The position numbers and the translations under genes are program-made. Of a DNA stretch of 64,000 nucleotides, positions 595 to 49,900 are shown piece after piece (the first letter of the stretch is position 1; each line of letters begins with the position of its first letter). The notes beneath the pieces were generated by a model, which saw nothing but the letters and a program-made list of their open reading frames with translations, ran no database searches and had not been told where the DNA came from. Origin of the DNA: Alviniconcha marisindica (lineage: Eukaryota; Mollusca; Gastropoda; Provannidae); contig JABMCL010002254.1 of assembly GCA_018857735.1 (NCBI GenBank), positions 526,001 to 590,000 on the forward strand, read 5' to 3'.

Positions 595-829
595 AGCTGA
601 TGAAATGATGTAACACTGTTGGGGTAAAACGTTTTATTGACTGATGAAATGATGAAACGCTGCAGGAGTAAAAGCAGGGGTAAAAAACTTTACTGGCTGA
701 TGAAATGATGAAATACTGCAGGGGTAAAAAGCTTTACTGACTGATGAAATGATGAAACACTGCGGGGGCAAAAGATTTTACTGACTGATGAAATAATGAA
801 ACACTGCGGGGGTAAAAAGCTTTACTGAC
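595..829. repeat. ~44-bp minisatellite touching the CYFIP exon 12 donor
   Basis: Five or so copies built on 'tttactgactgatgaaatga' followed by a 'cactgcgggggtaaaa' segment. The last copy runs into the splice donor of CYFIP exon 12: the junction itself reads tttactgactgttgaagttg. The unit therefore seems to derive from the exon-intron border. Confidence 0.8.
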
Positions 830-968
830 TGTTGAAGTTGATGAGGTAATGCCAGAAGAAGGAGAGACGATGGAAGTCCTCAATGTGCGTAACGTGACGA
901 GGGTCCATGTCCTTTCGAAGCGCCTTCAGCCCAATCACTGACTCCAGCATCGTGCGTACCATGTACAG
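826..968 (-). CDS. CYFIP: CYFIP coding exon 12
   Basis: The acceptor gtgttgcag precedes [13 protein letters not shown], followed by [18 protein letters not shown]. The motif [10 protein letters not shown] is a CYFIP hallmark. About four residues usually found after it (ADKSG in relatives) are missing. Two donors are possible, GTAAAG (exon edge 826) or GTCAGT (edge 830). The next exon is off the window. Confidence 0.85.
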
Positions 969-46734: not shown

Positions 46735-46920
46735 TCACTTCCGCTGCCACACAGTAGCATGCGCCACGGTCCACTGATGTTTACGGGCAGTTTCACGGAT
46801 GAGAAAGGGAAGGTTGCGGTCCTCCAAAATGTCAAACCAGGGTGACAGCTCCTTCTCCAGCGTCTGGAACCCTGTCACAGGGTTCCCGCTCTTGTCTGTG
46901 TAGCCACCCAGCCAGGTGGA
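46735..46920 (-). CDS. Methyltransferase exon 4 with stop
   Basis: Acceptor gtcccacag, then STWLGGYTDKSGNPVTGFQ, LEKELSPWFDILEDRNLPFL, IRETARKHQWTVAHATVWQR and K before TGA. Same ending as the OvoA C-terminus. Confidence 0.93.
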   Translation of the reverse strand, partial: STWLGGYTDKSGNPVTGFQTLEKELSPWFDILEDRNLPFLIRETARKHQWTVAHATVWQRK

Positions 46921-49900
46921 CTGTGGGACAGAGGGGGGTACACAACAGTCTGATCACACACTGTGGGACAGAGGGGGGTAAACAACAATCTGATCACACA
47001 CTGTGGGACACAGGGGGGTAAACAACAGTCTGATCACACACTGTGGGACACAGGGGGGTAAAACAGTCTGATCACACACTGTGGGACAGAGGGGGGTAAA
47101 CAACAGTCTGATCACACACTGTGGGACACAGGGGGGTAAACAACAGTCTGATCACACACTGTGGGACAAGGGGGGTAACAAGTCTGATCACACACTGTGG
47201 GACAGAGGGGGGTAAACACAGTCTGATCACACACTGTGGGACACAGGGGGGTAAACAACAGTCTGATCACACACTGTGGGACACAGGGGGGTAAACAACA
47301 GTCTGATCACACACTGTGGGACAGAGGGGGGTAAACAACAGTCTGATCACACACTGTGGGACACAGGGGGGTAAACAACAGTCTGATCACACACTGTGGG
47401 ACAGAGGGGGGTAACAAAGTCTGATCACACACTGTGGGACACAGGGGGGTAACAGTCTGATCACACACTGTGGGACAGAGGGGGGTACAGAACAGTCTGA
47501 TCACACACTGTGGGACAGAGGGGGGTACACAACAGTCTGATCACACACTGTGGGACAGAGGGGGGTACAAACAGTCTGATCACACACTGTGGGACAGAGG
47601 GGGGTACAGACAGTCTGATCACACACTGTGGGACACAGGGGGGTAAACAACAGTCTGATCACACACTGTGGGACAGAGGGGGGTACACAACAGTCTGATC
47701 ACACACTGTGGGACAGAGGGGGGTACACAACAGTCTGATCACACACTGTGGGACAGAGGGGGGTACAGAACAGTCTGATCACACACTGTGGGACAAGGGG
47801 GGTAAACAACAGTTGATCACACACTGTGGGACAAGGGGGGTACAGAACAGTCTGATCACACACTGTGGGACAGAGGGGAGGTACAGAACAGTCTGATCAC
47901 ACACTGTGGGACAGAGGGGAGTACAGAACAGTCTGATCACACACTGTGGGACAGAGGGGAGGTACAGAACAGTCTGATCACACACTGTGTGACAGAGGGG
48001 AGGTACAGAACAGTCTGATCACACACTGTGGGACAGAGGCAGAGTCTGATCACACATGTGGGACAGGGGGGTACAACAGTCTGATCACACACTGTGGGAC
48101 AGAGGGGAGTACAGAACAGTCTGATCACACACTGTGGGACAGAGGGGAGGTACAGAACAGTCTGATCACACACTGTGGGACAGAGGGGAGGTACAGAACA
48201 GTCTGATCACACACTGTGGGACAAGGGGAGTACAGAACAGTCTGATCACACACTGTGGGACAGAGGGGAGGTACAGAACAGTCTGATCACACACTGGATG
48301 GGGGGACGGGAGCAGACAGTGATCAACATGTGGGACAGAGGGGGGTACAGAACAGTCTGATCACACACTGTGGGAAGGGGGAAGGGGGTACAGAACAGTC
48401 TGATCACAGGGGCAGGGGGACAAGTGATCCACCGAGGCAGGGAGGTCAGACAGGCAACTGTGGGACGGTAGAGTGCCGGGGGGAAGGGGGAGGGGGTAAG
48501 AACAGTCTGATCACACACTTGAGACAAAGGGGGGGTACAAAACAGTCTGATCACACACTGGGGGGAAGGGGGAGAAGGGAAGGTAAAGAACACACTTGAT
48601 TGGGGGGGGGGGGGTACACAGGGAACACACTCACACATGCATGCACACTTACTATACACAGTTACATACACACACCCATTCCCACATAGTGACATACACC
48701 CACTCACACATGCATGCACACTCACACATAGTCACATACACACACACACTCACACATGCATGCACACTCACACACACACATGCAGTCACATACACACACA
48801 CACATGCACACACACTCACATACCTGCATGTGAAGCATACACACACACACACACACAAACAAAGCACACACACATGGGTCATTCTCCAAAGCTGTGTAAA
48901 AAAGAGAGGTGAAATTTAGTGCTAAAATCTAAAATGGTTGACATGTTTTGTTCCACTTCAACAGTTTCAGAGCAAAACCTATGTGCTATCAAAATGGGAT
49001 AAATGATGTAACATGTTTAAATACAAAGAAAAATGGATGACAAACAATATCAACTGCAAAAAAGCAGCACTCGATTACACAAAGTTATGTTTATTTGACG
49101 GAGTATGACCCACCACATTTCCAAGAGATCAGCCGCATAACATGGTGTTATGAACTGGCTCTACAAACCAAATCACTCCTTACAGTTACATCCTGAACAA
49201 AGCACATGGTCAACTGTGGCATATATAAATGGCCTACCGCCAATGTATGCAGTCTAATTTGACGAAAAATAGTTTTGTGTCATGTTTCGCTTTTCAAGTC
49301 ATTCAGAAATGACAAATTCTAACGTCACAAGGAAAACCGAAACTCAATCCTGCAAATAAATTTGAATCCTAAACATTATCACCCAACTAAATATTTGGGG
49401 ATCTGGTTTTGTTGCAGATGAATAACACACAACTGGGTGTGCAATCAATAAAAAAAAAGTAGTACCTTATGTATTCATGACCAAGTGTTTTTCTGGTGTG
49501 TTTGAGTTGGAAGCAAACTTTGATGATGGTACTGATAGGTACAAATGGATAAATGGATGGTACTGCTAGGTACAAATGGATAAATATTTTCTAATTTTGG
49601 CTTCTGAAAATTACATGTCTGAAATAACTTTATTCAGTCTGAAGGCACCTTGATGTGACACATTCTTGACATACATGCAGAAAATGTCACACACAAAAAA
49701 CACTTTTGAGTCAATCTGCAGCATCCAGCAATATAACAGTTTTTAACACTGATAACTTAACACAGTCAATGAGTCTTTCACTGTTGTTGTTAATGTCTCT
49801 CCCATAAATATACAACACAAGTGAAAGGCAGACATTGCAATGAAAGACTGATTCAAAATACTTGTTTGATATGGGCCACCCTCAGTGGTAGTTACTGGTA

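Follow-up and report, generated by a model that had tools for sequence, protein, structure and literature searches.

Genes and tandem arrays in the window

The DNA analysed here, referred to as the window, is a stretch of 64,000 nucleotides from the 818 Mb assembly of the gastropod Alviniconcha marisindica (contig JABMCL010002254.1, hereafter C210; C210:526001-590000). It carries exons 1 to 12 of a CYFIP gene copy, a CLHC1-like gene and a methyltransferase-domain gene (Table 1), for all of which models were built from protein homology and open exon frames. Beyond the window, the CYFIP copy was followed through the neighbouring DNA to the gene end at about C210:502,700, and it was found to be a diverged paralogue of a CYFIP gene on contig C966. 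With the splice sites called, joins were in frame for CYFIP exons 1-5 and exons 7-28, and for all exons of the methyltransferase gene. Exon numbering is that of an earlier, sequence-only reading of the window; as the splice models count CYFIP exon 10 twice, model donors D22 and D24 correspond to exons 21 and 23.

Tandem repeats called by TRF occupy about half of the window, with units mostly of 16-80 bp. Runs of C, 13-20 long, were also observed at window positions 5650-5827 and about 31224-31246, both in and outside arrays.

Table 1. Genes and tandem arrays of the window, with positions counted from its first base
Feature	Position	Strand	Evidence or remark
CYFIP gene copy, exons 1-12	1..17191	-	tblastn and splice models
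CLHC1-like gene, 9 coding exons	21016..31519	+	TSNAXIP1_N domain, homology, splice models
Methyltransferase-domain gene, open over 298 codons in 4 coding exons	46735..53132	-	Pfam, splice models
44-bp array, donor of CYFIP exon 12 (exon end 830)	597..844	-	15 exon bases inside
42-bp array, starts 8 bp into intron after CYFIP exon 11	1319..2112	-	without junction copies
33-bp array, donor of CYFIP exon 10	3897..5147	-	TRF, alignment
474-bp tandem duplication, CYFIP exon 10 and part of array	4419..5367	-	TRF (96%), tblastn
Two-copy duplication over CYFIP exon 8 donor	8191..8331	-	local alignment, not called by TRF
47-bp array, starts 79 bp into the intron that follows CYFIP exon 7	8629..8956	-	TRF
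55-bp array, stops 3 bp short of CYFIP exon 7 acceptor	9243..9527	-	without exon bases
78-bp array, acceptor of CYFIP exon 6	11018..12638	-	about 20 copies, 26 exon bases inside
63/64-bp array across CLHC1 exon 5 acceptor	25475..26469	+	12 exon bases inside
40-bp array from intron +4 after CLHC1 exon 5	26629..27700	+	TRF, alignment, site scores
46-bp array ending at CLHC1 exon 6 acceptor	27726..27993	+	units repeat CAG
70-bp array, starts one base into intron after CLHC1 exon 6	28252..29090	+	units without GT
40-bp array, 38 copies, methyltransferase exon 4 acceptor	46920..48408	-	units bring a pyrimidine tract and CAG

Anatomy of the junction arrays

The sequence-only reading had listed ten arrays as starting exactly at splice junctions and multiplying the donor or acceptor. 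Five of these were confirmed to cross their junction, two adjoin it and repeat the site (in one case only as a weaker GT), two adjoin it without repeating the site and one lies 79 bp away. Exon bases were present inside the arrays at the donors of CYFIP exons 10 and 12 and at the acceptors of CYFIP exon 6, CLHC1 exon 5 and methyltransferase exon 4, the last with a single exon base in its unit. At CYFIP exon 10, the unit consists of the 23 last exon bases and the 10 first intron bases, and most of about 31 copies contain GAG/GTAGGC (the slash marks the splice point). The exon occurs twice, at 5125-5339 and 4651-4865, and its second copy splits this array. Both copies have phase 0 at the start and phase 2 at the end, and splicing them together would break the frame.

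At the CLHC1 exon 6 acceptor, the array ends at the junction without crossing it, while its CAG is repeated from unit to unit. The array at the CLHC1 exon 5 donor contains no exon bases, and its GT in register (TAAT/GTGACA) is weaker than the donor, none of the copies in that array coming to within 0.5 bit of the score of the authentic donor. The claim of splice-site multiplication did not hold for two of the remaining three. The authentic acceptor of CYFIP exon 7 has no copy in the abutting array (best decoy 0.5 against 3.6), the units abutting the CLHC1 exon 6 donor read AATGGGTAG and do not multiply the site. The third, the array assigned to the CYFIP exon 7 donor, begins well inside the intron, with a likeness to the junction that is faint by eye. 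Multiplication of splice sites is a property of a subset of the arrays, AG or GT signals being present in many units and absent from some. The local origin of the arrays was borne out, and unit sequences are mostly unrelated: 11 of 146 TRF rows (a redundant list) match elsewhere in the DNA examined.

A local set was defined as the 90 kb around the window, with 77 junctions of the CYFIP, CLHC1 and methyltransferase genes, of which 76 entered the pooled count (the second copy of CYFIP exon 10 being represented there without its acceptor). Ten arrays cross and repeat a junction in this set, six at donors and four at acceptors, with 1-38 exon bases inside; the two CYFIP exon-10 donors are taken separately in this count. 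Outside the window, D22 has a 33-bp unit with 23 exonic bases and D24 a 42-bp unit with 38 exonic bases, repeated in 18 copies at C210:510143-510907 (window -15857 to -15093), and both units carry the donor. At CYFIP exon 8, the exon end aligns over 42 bp with an intronic copy, making this two-copy duplication a possible early-stage array.

Frequency of arrays at junctions

The distance from the junction to the first array base was 0-5 bp at 16 of the 77 junctions, 6-10 bp at two and 11-20 bp at three. When arrays were shuffled strictly within introns, as a first null, the 11 of 76 junctions with an array at 0 bp far exceeded the mean of 2.2 (P<0.0003). However, a founder unit can overhang an exon, and the within-intron null was rejected for this reason; as a founder of length u overlaps a junction from about u start points, a pile-up at 0 bp is expected. 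Junction targeting as suggested by the first shuffle was likewise rejected, the effect being gone once founders were allowed to overhang the exon: with 73 intronic arrays, 9 spanning arrays were counted against 8.39 expected (P=0.47), a count that leaves out the stretch between the two CYFIP exon-10 copies.

A second estimate derived the expectation from the array rate at 51-360 bp off the junction, with founder length set to 40-42 bp, and included chaperonin, adaptin and myosin genes on other contigs. Junctions of the latter were called automatically at 142 of 158 exon ends, from exon hits numbering 25 of 32 for chaperonin, 25 of 31 for adaptin and 29 of 73 for myosin, with a few calls doubtful (such as the L070 acceptor). 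Spanning arrays numbered 10 against 7.4 expected at the 76 local junctions, 2 against 4.0 at the 142 others and 12 against 9.8 (9.78) at all 218 (P=0.31). One chaperonin exon on another contig (L043, from a gene which we take to be CCT gamma) has arrays at both borders, of 90 bp at the acceptor (26 exon bases) and of 73 bp at the donor (35 exon bases); at L033, also from the chaperonin set, only 2 bp separate the acceptor from the end of an array. The occurrence of such arrays on another contig indicates that the phenomenon is not peculiar to the window. Some of the chaperonin, adaptin and myosin exon hits lie in open frames of 500-1774 codons, exceeding the hit by far, and these frames are perhaps in-frame arrays beside the exons.

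The overhang fractions of 11 spanning arrays (without the second CYFIP exon-10 donor) were uniform (KS P=0.63). Arrays occupied a fraction of 0.52 of intergenic DNA, 0.48 of introns and 0.06 of exons, and none lay wholly within coding sequence in the 5,830 coding bases covered. Unit length was divisible by three in 7 of the 11 spanning arrays (P=0.13 when compared with all arrays, 0.04 when compared with an expectation of one third). Homology of units to exon sequence only was found in 6 of 163 array-junction pairs at a score of at least 22, against 0.16 expected.

These results bear on a junction-directed mutational process, such as R-loop formation, break repair or slippage at motifs like CAG/G, which would found arrays preferentially at exon borders; the sequence-only reading had proposed one such process behind all of the arrays. 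It would account for an excess on the intron side, where the first 50 intron bases held 26 arrays against 10.8 expected at the 218 junctions (2.4-fold, P=0.0004), divided into 14 against 6.7 locally and 12 against 4.9 on other contigs. The 50-bp cut was picked after looking, although cuts of 10 to 100 bp all gave P values of 0.0002 to 0.0035; with spanning arrays and the near zone pooled, 38 were found against 20.6 expected (P=0.003). Furthermore, the unit at chaperonin exon L032 resembles by eye the stretch between the acceptor CAG/G and another CAG/G about 28 bp into the exon, the outcome expected of slippage between short repeats. Enrichment at junctions, whose absence the sequence-only reading had named as refuting its view, was found in the adjoining intron, leaving room for a weak local bias near junctions, but not among spanning arrays, which occurred at the chance rate in both tests and with uniform overhangs, while intergenic DNA was as rich in arrays as introns. 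The myosin set showed no excess in the near zone (4 arrays against 3.5 expected), and 0 of its 54 junctions were spanned. A junction-directed origin is therefore considered unlikely. By eye, the near-zone arrays at L032 and L037 resemble spanning arrays with a decayed last copy, and the spanning count may for this reason be low.

Strength, frame and conservation of the copied sites

Many copied sites match the authentic one closely: copies scoring within 0.5 bit number 22 for the second exon-10 donor, 17 for D24 and 23 for methyltransferase exon 4. This would be expected if inner copies were put to use as alternative splice sites and part of the arrays were kept for that function. The D24 array also reads open for 255 codons in the frame of its exon, and the D22 array for 64 codons. 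With the outermost site, the frame is kept at the methyltransferase exon 4 acceptor and at all array-bearing CYFIP junctions except exon 6, and is lost at three array-bearing acceptors: CYFIP exon 6, CLHC1 exon 5 and CLHC1 exon 6, the latter two affecting CLHC1 joins 4-5 and 5-6 (window 24670-28020). At CLHC1 exon 6, an acceptor one unit (46 bp) upstream scores 2.2 against 2.4 and joins in frame and open, and among sites scoring 0 or more, it is only this inner acceptor that keeps the frame.

Against functional copies, every listed inner acceptor that would restore the frame at CLHC1 exon 5 or CYFIP exon 6 introduces stops, and read-through past the donors of CYFIP exons 10, 12 and 13 meets in-frame stops. 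Nor are the copied sites specially conserved: in a wrap-around alignment of 10 arrays, splice dinucleotides were kept no better than other columns (mean normalised rank 0.52, a value that includes a CLHC1 column artefact of 0.06 and a poor alignment of CYFIP A6). Constraint had been hinted at by an ungapped scan, in which 2 of 10 registers were off, but was not upheld by this alignment. The frequency of the arrays also fits neutrality. Functional inner copies, with some arrays retained for them, are judged distinctly improbable.

The three frame mismatches could reflect either the use of some inner copies, or small assembly errors at array edges, or exons in decay. CYFIP exon 6 itself (window 11018-11043 and downstream) is degenerate, aligns poorly to exon 6 of the paralogue and is out of frame, and in its array units the start of the exon survives in a different state. 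The frame would be kept if this exon were skipped, exon 6 of the C966 gene being 108 bp. The cause may be decay of the exon or an error in the assembly.

Age of the introns

The C966 paralogue (C966:1285001-1305000) is the better conserved of the two CYFIP genes and lies in array-poor surroundings (TRF coverage 2-6%), with no TRF array across any of its modelled junctions. Total intron length as modelled is about twice as great on C210 (34.8 kb in 27 introns, intron 6 excluded and the interval between the exon-10 copies included) as on C966 (16.2 kb in 24 introns, intron 1 excluded). Each of the 7 introns that carry a spanning array in the C210 gene has its counterpart in the C966 gene, and it was therefore concluded that the arrays did not create these introns.

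Two introns are found only in the C210 gene, after exon 7 (model intron 7) and after exon 17 (model intron 18, outside the window), and both hold arrays. The birth of introns by tandem duplication of AG/GT-bearing exon segments, with the arrays as remains, has been published for other genes (in the available text of PMC3087553 and PMC2812944) and could be read into these two, but is very improbable here given the seven shared introns, the lack of evident likeness between the ends of the two extra introns and the opposite exon (inspected by eye only), and the fact that loss in C966 accounts for them equally well.

Probable tolerance of arrays across splice junctions

The arrays are probably mirages, a term introduced for amphioxus genes, that is, ordinary minisatellites whose founder chanced to straddle an exon-intron border, neutral in birth and tolerated thereafter. 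Direct support comes from the arrays and the anatomy of their units, from a frequency matching that of random founders, from uniform overhangs, from copied splice sites without extra conservation and from an equal density in intergenic DNA. Under this reading, local segments of 20-90 bp would be duplicated in tandem at a high rate in this genome, presumably through slippage or recombination, with founders landing roughly at random. Those falling wholly within coding exons would be purged by selection, whereas those across a donor or acceptor could persist, as the outermost, exon-side site would remain and be favoured by exon definition, the inner copies leaving with the intron during splicing.

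Tolerance would then follow from the exon-side site being the one usually used. According to the available text of PMC9225289, exon definition favours whichever site is closer across the exon, and intron definition whichever is closer across the intron. Since most CYFIP introns on C210 exceed 500 bp, the outermost site should be favoured here. Several observations count against chance founding with exon-side splicing: the excess at 0-50 bp, the 7 of 11 units divisible by three, the open frames at D22 and D24, and an exon-side preference of only about 60%, this being the proportion of events overall in which the upstream of near-equal human donors is chosen (PMC9225289, available text). The frame mismatches at the three array-bearing acceptors also count against use of the outermost site, although assembly error at array edges would explain them as well.

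A joint reading, in which mirages occur genome-wide in this species, are tolerated under exon definition and form a natural assay of splice choice with some inner copies really used, is unlikely. Inner use would then either keep the frame, as at CLHC1 exon 6, or lengthen the protein by whole units, for which the 18 x 14 codons that read open beyond CYFIP exon 23 are a candidate.

If rows of near-equal sites are harmless, as a frequency close to random suggests, they would show in vivo which of many equal sites is chosen by the spliceosome, and exon definition could be tested on many ready-made cases in genomes rich in minisatellites. An array at a junction does not by itself imply junction-specific mutation or intron birth, and gene models and assemblies beside such arrays may be wrong.

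Comparison with known systems

In the Rogers model, introns are reportedly gained through tandem duplication. Duplicated AG/GT segments are common to that model and the arrays described here; the model, however, yields a gained intron, whereas the spanning CYFIP arrays sit in introns shared with C966.

Internal tandem repeats at exon-intron boundaries are also described for human segmental-duplication genes in the available text of PMC2812944. Like the present arrays, these are minisatellites (of about 30 bp) at exon borders, but there they are associated with new introns and with alternative transcripts of recent paralogues, while the CYFIP introns with spanning arrays described here predate those arrays. 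Among the matches listed, which lie mostly outside the subscription literature, titles and abstract openings named no further case of junction arrays beyond PMC3087553 and PMC2812944.

The closest likeness is to the 'mirages' of amphioxus, minisatellites over exon-intron boundaries of the Adh3 and globin genes (Ebner 2010, PMC3087553; Canestro 2002, via PMC3087553), where RT-PCR suggested that regular splicing was undisturbed. As far as the available text of PMC3087553 goes, mirage units hold part of an exon together with a splice site, at 5' or 3' boundaries, and AG or GT occurs in many but not all units, as is the case here. A unit spanning the exon-intron boundary was found at 12 of the 218 junctions, at both 5' and 3' boundaries, with L043 having both at one exon. 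Unit lengths are 10-72 and 150-160 bp in the mirages described in that text and 24-90 bp here. Unlike the amphioxus cases presented there, the present arrays affect many introns of several conserved genes and reach up to 38 copies, and a random-founder control, without mention in the same text, was applied. The junction-copying arrays of this genome are the same kind of object as the amphioxus mirages, a known oddity.
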